DNA of 64,000 bases from positions 496,001 to 560,000 of the forward strand of contig JAGTXX020000003.1 of assembly GCA_019044685.2 (NCBI GenBank). The letters run 5' to 3'. This DNA comes from Nannochloris sp. 'desiccata'. Lineage: Eukaryota > Chlorophyta > Trebouxiophyceae > Chlorellales > Chlorellaceae. The notes under the pieces are model-generated. The model was not told the origin of the DNA, ran no database searches, and worked only from the letters and a program-made list of their open reading frames with translations. A program made the position numbers and the translations under genes. Below are positions 26,458 through 32,730 of the stretch, piece after piece. How positions within the stretch are numbered: position 1 is the first letter of the stretch; the number at the start of each line of letters is the position of its first letter.

Positions 26458-28725
26458 ATGGCAAGCAACAAGGCAAGTTGTAATCCTCCTAATACTGCTA
26501 GATAATTCATTTCATGCATGTCGAGCGCCATTCCGGCTCCTGAATTTGCGATAGAAACTCAACCCTCATTTTCAACCTTCACGACCCTATCTTTGACTAT
26601 TTTTTATTTTTATTTTTGCAGAGCCTCAGCGTAGCCGAGTACTCGGACGTTGGTGAGTCTTACGTTTATTTTGTATTTTTGACTGCAATACCCTCTGTTA
26701 TTCGCCATGCATGCAGTATTGGCTTTCTCACCATGTTTTTCCTGCCCGCCCCCATGCGCTGCAGTTATTAAAAAGTATTTGCACCAAGCTTACAGTGAGC
26801 ACCCTAGAGAGAACCTCACTAAAGCAGCTGAAGAGATGTATGGTAAGCTAGTCGTTTGGTTTCCAATTTCATGCACGGCTTCTTAAAGGGTTTAAAGATC
26901 TAAGTTAGCTCCCTATTTTTTTTCCTGTTGCAGTTTTGCTCCGCAAGCTTACTGACGCTGCTGGAGGCAAGTCTGAAGATGCCAAGGCACCTTTGAAGGC
27001 CATTCGTAACGCTCTTGACACCATTGTCTCCAATTAGTAAGTAAAAACTACTAAATTATCCTGTTATTTACTTCTTAAAATCCACATCGTTTTTCTCTTT
27101 CTTTTTTTCTCATCACTGTTCTCACGATCCCTCAAGTTACCCTGTTGGGGTTCTTTTAATTTAATTCTAACCATTTATTTTTTATTTTTTTCTTCTCATG
27201 AAGCTCCGAGGGCACCGCTTCCCCGGAAGTCGATTCCCTTTTCAATCTTTGCCGTCGTTTGCAAGAACTCTGTGAAGAGCGTATCCTCACCAACACTGAC
27301 CCTATCGGTGGCCAACAAGTCCAAGATCACCTCCGCTACAGGCTTACTCGCCTGGTCACCGGCTCTGCTTGGGATGCTCACATTGAGCTTAAACTCCATG
27401 TTCTGCGGCTTATCTTCTCTTTTATGGTGAAAGAGAATGAGCGTCTTCTCGAAGAGGCTAGGGGAGTCCCCAGTTTGAAATTGGGACGTACCTTGAGCAT
27501 CGGCAGAGGTCGAGGCTCTCGAGATTTGGGCCCTGCTAAAGTAAGCAAATGGTCTGAAGCTATCGATGAAATTGGACGTTTACCCGGGTCAAAACTGGTT
27601 CCTTTGATGAAGTTATTGCTCGCAGACAACATGCAGATGCATACTGGACGTGTTCTTGGCAGTGGTACTGCTGCTGCTGGCGGTGCTGGTGCTGGAGCAG
27701 AGGAAGGTTTCCCTGCTACCCCTAACAAAGATTCAGCGTCTGTCGGTCCTCATACCGGAGGAAAAGGGAGCCCTGAAGTTCAAGCTATGAACGCTTCTCT
27801 TCTCAACGATTTACTCGGTCTGAGTATCAATGAAAATCAAAGTGGTGGAGGTACAGATTCTCGTCAACAGCAAGACCCTGCAACTGGTTCTCGTCGTTCT
27901 TCTTCCCCTGCACCTTCCAGTGTCGCTCCTAGTGATGACCCCTTTGCCGCATCTATGGGAGAAGCTCGCTCTGAAGCATCTTACGGTGCTGGTAATCTTG
28001 GTGGTGTCGGTGGTGGTGATGAAAGAATGATGATGCAACAGAGAATGCCAATGATGTCTTCTGGCTTAGGCCCTCGCTCTTCCTCCGGTACTATGAGTCA
28101 TACATCTGCACCTCCCCCTGGCATCCCTACCCCTCCTTCTTCAGGCTACTACCCTGCTGCGGCAATTCCCACTGGAGCTACTGGTCATTTTGGAGGTCCT
28201 GGAGGTCGTTCTTCTTCTTCTGCTCCACAACAAGCATACGGCAGCCAGAATGGGGGCAGCTTGCCTCCTTCTAGCCCTGCGTATCATCAACAGCAGATGA
28301 TGCACCAGCATCAATACCATCAGCAACAAATGCAAATGCAACAACACCAACACCAGCAGCCGTACCAGATGCAGCGCATGGGGAGCGGTGGTGGTGGCAA
28401 TATGCAGCAGCCTGGATATGCTATGTATTCCACTCCCCCTCATGGTAATAACAATGTCTACAATACTGGTGAGATGTCTAATTTCGATGCTGCATCTCCG
28501 TATTTGGTAAGATTGTTAATGTTTTGTCATTTTAAAAAACGACGAGGGTGGGATTTTTTTATATATATGTATATTTTTTAATACGAATAATTCTCCCTCT
28601 TTATTTTAATGCAGGGAATGACTGAGCCGTTTGAAACCCATTATTTCCAGGATGTAGCTCCCCTTCCTGATCGCAAGCCTGTCCCTTTACCCTCCTCCCC
28701 TCCTATGCGTGGTGGACAGCAATAA
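26458..28725 (+). CDS. Unknown protein: helical N-terminal domain plus prion-like Gln/Met/Pro-rich tail
   Basis: Six exons: 26458-26472, 26622-26652, 26765-26842, 26934-27036, 27204-28506, 28615-28725. All phases agree and give 546 aa. The first exon is only 15 nt and is followed by a GC-AG intron (AAG|GCAAGT). The first ~190 residues look like an all-helical domain (YSDVVIKKYLHQAYSEHPRE, KAIRNALDTIVSNY, LFNLCRRLQELCEERIL, LKLHVLRLIFSFMVKENERL). A basic RGRGSRD segment and another helix follow to ~290. The rest is Gly/Ser/Pro, then a His/Gln/Met-rich stretch typical of RNA-granule or transcription proteins. I do not recognise the family. Codon use in the exons is biased, suggesting good expression. 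Confidence 0.72.
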
Positions 28726-29612
28726 AAAAATAAAGTCTTCAAAATAAAGTTCAATAAATTCTCTTGTCTTTCCCTCTCTTATCTAGCGACTCTCTATTGT
28801 GTCTTCTGTTCTTGCATGCATCCTTTTCTATCAATTGATTAAATATGATTATGTTTTTTTTTTTTTCAATTTTTCTTTCTGTTTTTTGTCATCACATTCT
28901 GTATACGTCAAGTCAAGTCTTCTTATTTTCCTATCTTTGCTAATTATAATCAAATGATGCCTTCTTTTAAACGTGTCTCCTGCTCTTCCTTTGCTTTATC
29001 TATCTATTTGAATGTATATGGCTTTATACTTCCTCTCTGTGTTTTTCTGCATCCAAGCAGGCCCGCCTTTTGACGTCTCAAGAGACCGAGCCGCCCCCTG
29101 CATTTTTTTTCTATATAATAATCCAAGTTTTCTGTGGCGTATTTTCTGCATTTTTGTCTTTTTTACTACCCCTGCTGTGTATGTATCTTAATTAGTGCAT
29201 GTTTTGTAAGTGTGAATTAATTCAGTGGGGCAAAATTGTTTGTAAGATGAGAAGCGGTGCTTGGTAAAAAAACTGGCAAAGATCTCGAAATAAGGTCAGT
29301 ATTGCGTTAGAACACTTTCAAAAGTTGCTGTTTGATGACAAGGAATTGTCCCTTTGTGCGAAATAGGAAAGAAACTCCCAAATTTTATCGCTCGAGAAGA
29401 AAATAAGTGGCGGCGGGAGATATTGTCATACAGATGATACCTGCTATAGTGATAAATTTGCCAAAGGATCAATGCGAACATGTTTAAAACAGCAATACCT
29501 TAGTCCAGCTGAAGGGCATATTCTGTCTTTCTACCTGGAAAGATTGGCAAAAGAAGGCTTGCGAAATGGCCTCGTATTGAATTGAAAATCGATCGATAAT
29601 TGACAAAAAGGA
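28726..29612. other. Non-coding stretch, T-rich
   Basis: No supported ORF over 887 bp downstream of the six-exon gene. It contains long pyrimidine/T tracts (e.g. ~28853-28866). TGTAA occurs near 29207 and 29242. The segment leads to the permuted tRNA on the opposite strand. Confidence 0.5.
29605..29609 (-). terminator. Pol III T5 terminator
   Basis: Five Ts on the minus strand begin four nucleotides past the 5'-half end of the permuted tRNA (29613). This is where Pol III would stop if the 3'-half/5'-half unit is a single transcript. Confidence 0.75.
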
Positions 29613-29698
29613 TGGAAGGGAAGCATGTTACCGTTACACCACAACTCGGTTGTACAACTGATATCGAGTTGCTGGGAGTCGAACCCAGGACGCTTCCT
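29613..29698 (-). tRNA. Circularly permuted tRNA-Gly (anticodon UCC)
   Basis: On the minus strand the 3' half (29698-29664) comes first, then a 15-nt spacer (29663-29649), then the 5' half (29648-29613). Reordered, the halves form a complete cloverleaf. The acceptor CGAGTTG (29648-29642) pairs perfectly with CAACTCG (29671-29665), and the discriminator is A. D stem GTGT/ACAT has one G-U; the D loop is AACGGTA. Anticodon stem CTTCC/GGAAG is fully paired, with loop CT-TCC-A joined to A, giving anticodon UCC. The T arm is CTGGG-TTCGACT-CCCAG and the variable loop has 4 nt. The A box (TGGTGTAACGG) and B box (GGTTCGACTCC) are consensus but in reverse order. The breakpoint falls at 37/38, the canonical intron position. 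A T5 terminator follows. A clean bulge-helix-bulge motif could not be drawn by eye. Confidence 0.88.
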
Positions 29699-29706
29699 AA
29701 TCTAAA

Positions 29707-29753
29707 GTTTGAAGGTAGCATCGCAGAGTTTCGACCTCTATACTATCTTCAAA
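29707..29753. repeat. 12-bp inverted repeat hairpin next to the permuted tRNA
   Basis: GTTTGAAGGTAG (29707-29718) is the inverse complement of CTATCTTCAAAC (29742-29753) except for one G-T position. The 23-nt loop contains a smaller stem (AGAG/CTCT) with a GTCGAAA-type loop when read on the minus strand. It sits about 9 nt upstream of the tRNA 3' half on that strand. It could be a leader structure, the 3' hairpin of a small RNA, or a terminator-like element. Confidence 0.6.
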
Positions 29754-30792
29754 CGACTAAATTTTCTTCTTTTCAAAAAATCTTCCAATTTAGGCCTTCT
29801 CAGACATCCTAGTCACTAACAATCATTTTCAAACAACTAGACCTATCTATACGTTGACCGTAGAGCCAAATCGCTACCGAATTAGTCCAATAATGAGCTC
29901 ATTGCCCTAAATATTTTGCACCAAACTACATCCTGTCAAGAAGTGCACCAGTAAATTAGACGCAACGCTTTATGAACAGAACAAAAGCAAAGATCCGCGC
30001 TTGAACACAAATTTTACACGCTGTTTCCACAGACAAATCCAAATTCTACAAATTTCGGCACATGGTGAAATTCCACTCTAGAAATATGTTGATAAAACCA
30101 AGGGATATTCAAAGGAAAAGAAATCAAGGATTCCATACGGTTTGCACAGGAAACAATGCTTTTGAAGCCAGTAGTACTTTTACTTTCCAGCTTGAGAAAA
30201 AACGGGCGACCGGAGGCAAAGGTGGTTGGCCTCCCCAGCAGCATTCAACAATTGTATCCCTAGCGTGGGTTGAGGGTCTCAATCTTATGGAGAATGCCAG
30301 GCTTCTGTTCAAGGCCACGAAAAGATCGAGCTCGGTGTGCTCTCCAAGTTGAGCGGCGATGAGACGACTGATTGACTTTGAACAACAGGGTGACGGGTTC
30401 CATTATTATTGGGGAATCTAATGAGAAAACAAGGAGAATGCATTATTCGATACAGTTAATTGTTATATGTGCTGTCATTATGGTTCTTTCTCCAGCAAGG
30501 TTCAGCGATCAGCGTTAAATTTACACTTTGATCTGAACAAAAAGCTCTTCCAGCTGCGGTAAAAACATTTGGAAACCTAACAGCTAAGCTCAAGCCAATT
30601 CACTTCAATGCAAATGAAGCAACATTAGTGATGTCTTTGTGATATTTTCTTCAGATTCAAGTTCGATTTGACCCTTCTTTAAGTCTTCAAGTTGAAGCCA
30701 GCAACAAATATTTGAAATTTTTGACCGGCACAATTAATGAGTATTCTTAATTTTATGGATGAGTTGTTAATAAGTTATTAATTTATCAGAAG
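29754..30792. other. Non-coding stretch upstream of the JJJ1 gene
   Basis: No supported protein gene. Reading frames at 30062-30352 (+) and 30124-30318 (-) overlap on opposite strands and neither shows a domain. The minus-strand sequence GATTTTTTGA near 29775-29784 resembles an Sm site. AT-rich promoter-like sequence precedes the next ATG. Confidence 0.4.
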
Positions 30793-32730
30793 ATGAAGTG
30801 CTTATATGAGGTCTTGGAAGTAGATTTAAACTCAGATGAATCAACAATTCGAACTGCATACAGAAAACTAGCACTGCGATGTCATCCAGGTACTTAAATA
30901 AGGGTTCAAAAAGTTTTCTAATATAAATTTAGATGCCGATTCGGCTTTGTTTAGGATATTTTTCCATCAATCAAATGTCTCAGTTGCCGCCACCACCGCC
31001 GCCGCTGCTCTTACTACCTATTTATTTATGATCCTCTTCTGTCTACAGATAAAAACCAAAACGATCCTCACGCAGAAGATCGTTTCAAAGAAATCCAGAA
31101 TGCCTATGAAATCCTTAGCGACCCAAATGAAAAGGCATGGTATGACGCCCATCGTGATGCCATTCTCAAATCAGGTGATCGGCACCAAGCTGGTGCCTCT
31201 GCTGAGAGTATGGCTGGAGTACGTCCAGATGATTTCGTAGATGTATATGCATATTTCACTTCAAGCTGTTATTCCGGGTTTGGAGATGGACAGCGTAGTT
31301 TCTATGGTGTTTATAGCACTCTATTTTCAACAATAGAAAAACAAGAATCAGATGCATCTGCAGCACGAGCCGATAAACGAGGCTGTAGATCTAATATACA
31401 TTTACCAGAATTTGGTCTATCAAGTGCTGAATGGTCTGAGGTGAGTGCATTCTATGCACAATGGGCTTCTTTCGCTTCAGCTCGAGATTTTTCTTGGGCG
31501 GGAGAGTACAATACCGCTTCGGCGCCTAATAGACAAATCCGCCGATTAATGGAGCAAGACAACGCTAAAAAGACCAAAGCAGCGAAGAAAGAGTACAATG
31601 AAAGCGTCCGAAGTTTAGTTGACTTTGTCAAAAAGAGAGATAGACGTGTTATAGTCCATCAGATGGAAGAGGCAAAGAGAAGGCAAGAAAGACAAGAGGC
31701 AGACGCAGCACGGCGGGAGGCTGAAAAACAAGAACGATTATTACGAGCTGCCCAATATAAAGATGCAGCATGGGCTCAAGGTTCTGACAATAGTGCTGAT
31801 AGTGATACAAATGAAGAAGATGATATGCTAGAAGAGCAGTTGGTATGGTACTGCCCAGTGTGTGAGAAACATTTTAAAAGTGAAGCGTCGATGGCAAATC
31901 ATGAAAAATCAAAAAAGCATAAAGAATTGGTGGAGTTGCTGAGAATTGAATTAGAAGCTGAAGAACTTGGTGTTATCATGGAGGAAGATGGAGAGGAGGG
32001 GGAAGAAGGAGAGGGTAGAGAGGAACAGGATGATGATGAAGAAATATATAGTGAGATAGCAAGCGGGAGTTGTGATAAAGAGGATAGGTTAGAAAAAAAA
32101 TCAAGTGCCCCTTCTTCAGATGATAGTAGTGAAGTAACGGATGAGGCTTCATCTTCTTTTTCTGCTGAAGACGATCACGATGATGTTGATGATGATGATG
32201 GTGAAAAAGAGATGGATGAAGATGCAATGTTGGCTAGTTTATTAAACGCTAGAGCCAATCTAGCGAGGAAACAGAATGAAGCAACCTCATCTTTTTCTTC
32301 AGAGGATGAAGAGAGTAGAGATCATGATGAAGAAAAAAGAGAGGATGAAAATGGTAGAGAAGAGCAGGAGATGATAGAGGAAGATGCAGAAGGAGTAACT
32401 GGAGAGGAGCGGCCAGGTTCAGCGCCTCCACTAGTCCTTGGCGGCGATAGTAATAGCGATAATGACGATGATGACTGGGGAACGAATAAAAGGGTAAAAA
32501 AGAAAGGAAAGAAAGGTGCCGCTGGTGGTAATAAAAGTGGAGGAAACACAGCTGCGCAACAGCAACAACAGCAATCAAAAAAAGGGGGGAAGAAAAAAGC
32601 GGCAAGTGGAAAGCAACCAACGTCATCAGAGTTAGGATGTAGCATCTGTGGCGTAGAATTTGCTTCTAGAAATCAGCTATTCAAGCACATTAGTCAAACT
32701 GGTCACGCGCAATTAAAAACTTCTCGGTAA
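30793..32730 (+). CDS. JJJ1/DNAJC21-type J-domain and C2H2 zinc-finger protein
   Basis: Two exons, 30793-30889 and 31049-32730, phase 1; splicing rebuilds HPDKN across the junction; 592 aa. The J domain spans ~1-65 (CLYEVLEVDLNSDESTIRTA, FKEIQNAYEILSDPNEK). A JJJ1-like region follows (FVDVYAYFTSSCYSGFGDGQ, FYAQWASFASARDFSWAGEY). Then come a charged helical part, a C2H2 finger (YCPVCEKHFKSEASMANHEK), a long acidic low-complexity region, a Lys-rich segment and a terminal C2H2 finger (LGCSICGVEFASRNQLFKHI). In yeast and humans this protein works with Hsp70 to release shuttling factors from cytoplasmic pre-60S ribosomes. Architecture is complete. Confidence 0.93.

Follow-up and report, generated by a model that had tools for sequence, protein, structure and literature searches.

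A circularly permuted tRNA-Gly(UCC) gene in Nannochloris sp. 'desiccata', an alga with mostly permuted nuclear tRNA genes among those found

The 64,000-nucleotide stretch of DNA analysed here (the window) carries on its minus strand, at positions 29613..29698, what is very probably a functional, single-copy, circularly permuted nuclear tRNA-Gly(UCC) gene of type II (break at 37/38), in an alga whose nuclear tRNA genes, as far as found, mostly have the same form. The original prediction of a permuted tRNA-Gly(UCC) gene at this place is thus supported and its scope widened, the gene being not a solitary case but a member of a set of 31. By its testable features it is a gene of a known kind, a type II permuted tRNA gene.

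Architecture and copy number of the tRNA-Gly(UCC) gene

The two minus-strand halves of 35 and 36 nt lie 15 nt apart, with the coordinates and lengths originally claimed, and are accompanied by the following features, given in the direction of reading.

29740..29781, minus strand: possible upstream promoter region of presumed function, with GATAGTAT and A/T runs, about -42 to -83 relative to the 3′ half
29664..29698, minus strand, 35 nt: 3′ half of tRNA-Gly(UCC), comprising position 38, the 3′ strand of the anticodon stem, the variable region, the T arm, the 3′ strand of the acceptor stem and the discriminator A73; pairs with the 5′ half in the ARAGORN cloverleaf; one genome match
29675..29685, minus strand: B box (positions 52-62), preceding the A box in the direction of reading; fits the pattern GGTTCRANNCC at C3:525675-525685
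29649..29663, minus strand, 15 nt: spacer linking both acceptor-stem ends, with no T4+ run inside; presumably excised after circularisation
29613..29648, minus strand, 36 nt: 5′ half of tRNA-Gly(UCC), positions 1-37, with the anticodon UCC (ARAGORN, genome match)
29631..29641, minus strand: A box (positions 8-19), read from the sequence with the numbering of the ARAGORN cloverleaf
29605..29609, minus strand: T5 run, presumed Pol III terminator, starting 3 nt past the 5′ half

Swapping the halves yields a sequence of 71 nt which ARAGORN folds into a tRNA-Gly(tcc) cloverleaf. The stems that had been claimed are reproduced on this rearranged sequence, the 7-bp acceptor, the anticodon and the T stems being perfect and the D stem containing one G-U pair, and the bases U8, G18G19, U33, TTC, R57 and A58 are conserved. 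The predicted breakpoint at 37/38, between A37 and A38, agrees with the cloverleaf, and the pair C1-G72 and the combination A15/C48, which leaves R15:Y48 without its usual pair, are present as stated; the same applies to the reversed order of the A and B boxes and to the T5 run behind the 5′ half. CCA is absent from the gene, and TATCAG comes after A73. In the unswapped window neither ARAGORN nor the Rfam model at its gathering score detected a tRNA. A conventional or intron-containing tRNA gene is ruled out, as the 5′ half is not located upstream of the 3′ half. The gene sits between the ORFs 27259-28581 and 31210-32730, and no ORF of at least 180 aa in the window overlaps it.

When the assembly (21.55 Mb in 18 contigs) was searched with the swapped 71-mer, only two matches of 100% each were obtained, which correspond to both halves in the window in reversed order. 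A canonical tRNA-Gly(UCC) gene elsewhere, named in the original prediction as evidence against it, was looked for genome-wide, and none was found by the Rfam tRNA model (63 of 825 candidates scored) or by B-box patterns; these searches were deep but non-exhaustive, and a conventional gene of divergent sequence may have escaped them, given the limited portion of Rfam candidates scored. GGA is a common Gly codon (146 of 538, counted over 11 window ORFs), and the cell therefore needs a tRNA with the anticodon UCC. Exact scans of viral contigs, where the alga is not expected, gave no match to the permuted gene or to its 5′ half.

The genome-wide set of permuted tRNA genes

A survey of the 21.55-Mb assembly revealed 31 permuted type II and nine conventional nuclear tRNA genes, both numbers being lower bounds because the search patterns demanded C48 or T48, in most cases also G46, and set letters in the T loop. 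The scan of the rest of the genome proposed along with the original prediction thus added 30 further permuted genes. All 31 are broken at 37/38, the arrangement for which, rather than for types I, III and IV, the survey was systematic. Since the B-box patterns match irrespective of which half comes first, the ratio of 31:9 should not favour permuted genes. The genes found are:

Permuted: Ala(AGC, CGC, UGC); Arg(ACG, CCG, CCU, UCG, UCU); Asn; Cys; Glu(CUC)
Permuted: Gly(GCC, UCC); Ile(AAU, UAU); Leu(AAG, CAA, CAG, UAA); Lys(CUU); elongator Met; Phe
Permuted: Ser(AGA, GCU); Thr(AGU, CGU, UGU); Trp; Tyr; Val(AAC, CAC)
Conventional nuclear: Val(UAC), Gln(CUG), iMet, His, Pro(UGG), Ser(UGA), Ser(CGA), Asp and a doubtful Pro(CGG)

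The label Ser(CGA) is based on manual reading, ARAGORN calling this gene Pro. Six of the conventional genes contain an intron at the usual place according to ARAGORN or manual reading; Val(UAC), Gln(CUG) and iMet are devoid of it.

Five B-box patterns were used, which occur at 34, 25, 25, 43 and 60 genome places. From the first two patterns 30 of 34 and 25 of 25 loci were read, and from the last three 7 of 25, 1 of 43 and 4 of 60 were examined, picked by eye for a paired or nearly paired T stem; two further places of the third pattern were already among the loci read. The places C15:2070222 and C15:1782086, the second Gly(GCC) copy on C13 and the Trp-like T arms on C8 (551553, 552566) were not read individually. 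One candidate locus (L105) proved on reading to contain no tRNA. A purpose-built scanner accepted 25 permuted genes at a score of at least 32, including ten in which one stem contains a single mismatch; as the scanner presumed a D stem of 4 bp, some of these one-mismatch genes simply have normal 3-bp D stems. The remaining six were identified by manual reading. Ala(UGC) and Leu(UAA) each show a single mismatch in the anticodon stem, Val(CAC) carries C33, Trp(CCA) has a short D stem and a mismatch in the T stem, Leu(CAG) contains an insert (see below) and Arg(ACG) is clean. ARAGORN accepts the swapped sequences of all 31 genes, that of Leu(CAG) once its insert is removed. The Rfam tRNA model gave nine matches at E 0.001 in the 21.55 Mb (63 of 825 candidates scored), two of which are copies of a mitochondrial-looking gene, and its sub-threshold matches with E up to 10 all fall on permuted genes (6/6).

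The two copies just mentioned are conventional Ser(GCU) genes on C6 and C13 (L004 at C6:2472079, L005 at C13:296400), which we take to be mitochondrial-looking and which were excluded from the count; a eukaryotic-type permuted Ser(GCU) gene (L055) coexists with them. Judging from paired identical pattern places, the end of C6 recurs on C13 in the opposite order, and an inverted duplication is present on C15 at 1-1.26 Mb. These duplications are either haplotypes or assembly artefacts.

For Lys(UUU), Glu(UUC) and Gln(UUG) a 5′-half pattern with one mismatch allowed was found at seven genome places (ten for the control), four of which are known tRNA genes and none of which represents these three tRNAs. 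The corresponding codons AAA, GAA and CAA are common, accounting for 225, 300 and 220 of 7465 codons, and the three genes may be either missing from the assembly or interrupted beyond the reach of the patterns. Likewise, the B-box pattern survey yielded no gene for Gly(CCC), Leu(UAG) or Pro(AGG).

Proposed transcription and processing, and alternative readings

For the tRNA-Gly(UCC) gene the following maturation pathway is likely. RNA polymerase III would start upstream of the 3′ half and end at the T5 run beyond the 5′ half, and the linear precursor would fold such that its two ends close the anticodon stem. The splicing endonuclease (Sen2/Sen34) would then remove leader and trailer at 37/38 and a ligase join the ends to a circle, from which RNase P and tRNase Z would excise the 15-nt spacer prior to the addition of CCA.

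Several signals in the DNA are consistent with transcription of both halves as one unit. A T4+ run begins 0-26 nt past the 5′ half in all 31 permuted genes, within 17 nt in 30 of them, against a background of 21% of random window 40-mers that hold such a run. In the spacers, with lengths of 5-73 nt, T4+ runs are absent (0/31), and in the last 40 nt of the leader they occur in 9 of 31 genes, i.e. near background. The T runs of 14 of the 31 genes have TTTTGC in common (background 1.6%), and in the conventional genes T4+ follows 1-17 nt beyond the 3′ end in 9/9. Upstream, A4/T4 runs peak between -60 and -100 from the 3′ half with 0.61-0.68 compared to 0.26-0.48 in the other 20-nt bins (within-set comparison of the 31 genes). 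This would fit with transcription from an upstream promoter, such as that suggested for Cyanidioschyzon merolae (PMC3978253).

As to the processing enzymes, a search for the endonuclease subunits Sen2 and Sen34 showed that the genome encodes both a Sen2-like protein, with human Sen2 as its best PDB match (chain 8iss_B, E 5.3e-35), and one resembling Sen34 (6z9u_A, E 1.5e-10). A search for a tRNA ligase by PF09511 gave no match in the genome, nor in any of 14 control genomes. Over the 31 genes, pairing between the anticodon loop (32-37) and the last 8, 12, 16 and 20 nt of the leader reaches a mean attained by only 4, 0, 0 and 12 of 500 re-pairings, respectively (uncorrected for the four lengths). 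Pairing between leader and trailer is not clearly enriched, its observed values being equalled or exceeded by 30 and 146 of 500 re-pairings, and a strong leader-trailer helix was sought over the 31 genes without success. In tRNA-Gly(UCC) itself only two contiguous anticodon-leader pairs are seen by eye beside the junction, so that a bulge-helix-bulge motif is weak for this gene.

With C1-G72, G2-C71, A3-U70 and A15/C48 the gene departs from what is usual in a eukaryotic tRNA-Gly. The permuted Gly(GCC) gene of the same genome has the usual pairs G1-C72, C2-G71 and G3-C70, and charging of the tRNA-Gly(UCC) is therefore presumable but not certain. The deviating C1-G72 and A15/C48 would also suit a non-functional relic composed of fragments of decayed tandem ordinary tRNA-Gly genes, with a working gene elsewhere, the more so as one proposed origin of permuted genes is a tandem duplication followed by loss of the outer halves. 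Every stem is nevertheless intact, the T run is correctly placed, a second sequence match is absent and GGA codons are common. Moreover, the same architecture recurs in 30 other genes, and the acceptor strands are mismatch-free within 29 of the 31 permuted genes compared to 13 of 930 between-gene pairings. We thus regard a relic as very improbable.

Still smaller is the likelihood that the halves, which formally are separable units, are transcribed separately and joined in trans, as in the split tRNAs known from some archaea. The spacer of 15 nt, like those of the whole set, is free of T4+ runs and the single T run follows the 5′ half, which makes one transcript the simpler reading compared to joining in trans. 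Chance resemblance has a negligible probability despite the commonness of A- and B-box-like words (GGTTCRANNCC at 263 genome places versus 373 for the reversed pattern), since it is excluded by the controls, in which dinucleotide shuffling of the downstream DNA (25 true 3′ halves x 40 shuffles) produced no score of at least 32 in 1000 tests and five shuffled windows contained no scanner match. The tRNA-Gly(UCC) gene scores 41 and is the single match in the window at a score of at least 28; a covariance model of the permuted order, applied to individual loci, gives it 54.6 bits. Folding energy alone provides a modest case, weaker than that of the scanner controls: z is -2.07 for the swapped RNA, with 9 of 200 shuffles equally good, and -0.59 for the unswapped 131-nt transcript, with 53 of 200.

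A functional permuted gene, as favoured here, can be compared with the known systems. Hosts of permuted tRNA genes described in the 2014 review by Soma are C. merolae, Ostreococcus, Micromonas, the Bigelowiella nucleomorph and the archaeon Thermofilum pendens (PMC3978253), to which the nucleomorph of Amorphochlora is added by a further report (PMC4494063). The host list of the original prediction also has to be widened, a trebouxiophyte precedent having existed since 2025: in Auxenochlorella UTEX 250-A, a member of the same class, the tRNA set is reported as incomplete by conventional search until permuted genes were found (PMC12636532). Other green-algal reports of permuted tRNA genes were not found in a limited literature search. 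With the type II genes of C. merolae, which include two for tRNA-Gly(CCC), the tRNA-Gly(UCC) gene shares the leading 3′ half, the break at 37/38, a short spacer, a T-stretch past the 5′ half but none in the spacer, and the unencoded CCA (PMC3978253); it differs from Gly(CCC) by its UCC anticodon and by lacking the T-loop intron described there. Its 15-nt spacer lies within the range of 1-74 nt given in Table 1 of the review (PMC3978253). The prasinophyte and Bigelowiella nucleomorph genes in that table are, as here, nearly all of type II with the break at 37/38 and have spacers of 5-64 nt; in contrast, the table gives 2-6 genes per genome, mostly Ser, Leu, Cys and iMet, with no Gly listed (PMC3978253).

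In the 2014 review permuted genes form a minority of a genome's tRNA set, for instance 11 of 43 in C. merolae (PMC3978253), compared to 31 of 40 nuclear genes found here. The permuted share thus amounts to about three quarters of the genes found, and tRNA-Gly(UCC) adds a clear example to this rare type of gene. Because most of the tRNA genes found are permuted, the cell may make much of its tRNA via circular RNA. The alga appears to be well suited for asking why permutation spreads, to what extent translation relies on circular RNA and whether transcription no longer needs the A and B boxes in their normal order, and it shows why standard tRNA finders undercount tRNA genes in such algae.

Inserts resembling mRNA introns and neighbouring repeats

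The permuted Leu(CAG) gene (L065, about 1530-1660; C11 near 1726961) has its 5′ half split in the D loop by a GT-AG insert of 89 nt, which starts with GTAAGC, contains CTAAC and finishes with TTTCAG. Upon its removal the D arm, the anticodon arm and the cloverleaf are complete. The ends of the insert are ambiguous by up to 3 bases because GT and the last G fall in a GGT repeated at both ends. All four signals were present in 144 of 200,000 shuffles with fixed flanks, the signals having been chosen post hoc. A similar mRNA intron is found in the xylulokinase gene of the window, with a length of 99 nt deduced from a gap in the protein alignment and the signals GTAGGT, CTAAC and CACAG; among named sequences the encoded protein is closest to those of trebouxiophyte green algae, sharing 58% with that of Chlorella sorokiniana and 57% with that of Parachlorella kessleri, and it shares 88-89% with metagenome relatives. 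A second case is the Pro(CGG)-like conventional gene (L072, 1332-1526; C5 near 482930), which contains a 93-nt GT-AG insert at 31/32 (0 of 200,000 shuffles) in addition to a 29-nt insert at 37/38. This gene may be dead, as its D loop has no GG and its acceptor stem contains a mismatch.

On this basis we tentatively propose, as a possible rather than a probable scenario, that the nuclear tRNA set is mostly permuted (31 of the 40 genes found), that translation largely depends on circular precursors and that a few tRNA genes additionally contain introns of the mRNA type GT-AG. A precursor with such an intron would need the spliceosome besides the tRNA endonuclease, ligase, RNase P and tRNase Z. 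Alternatively, the inserts of Leu(CAG) and Pro(CGG) may be removed by the tRNA endonuclease, or the genes may be decayed.

Two further observations concern the surroundings of permuted genes. The leader immediately preceding the permuted Thr(UGU) gene (L093) seems, by eye, to contain a decayed duplicate of the 3′ half, which may bear on the origin of such genes by tandem duplication. A dispersed repeat with the B-box-like word GGTTCGAGTCC, for which no Rfam match was obtained, occurs at L041, L053, L057, L059 and L047 and also at C15:1782086. The end of one copy is about 81 nt away from the permuted Cys gene, on its upstream side, and a divergent copy ends about 88 nt upstream of the permuted Phe gene, a placement that recalls retroelements targeting Pol III genes.
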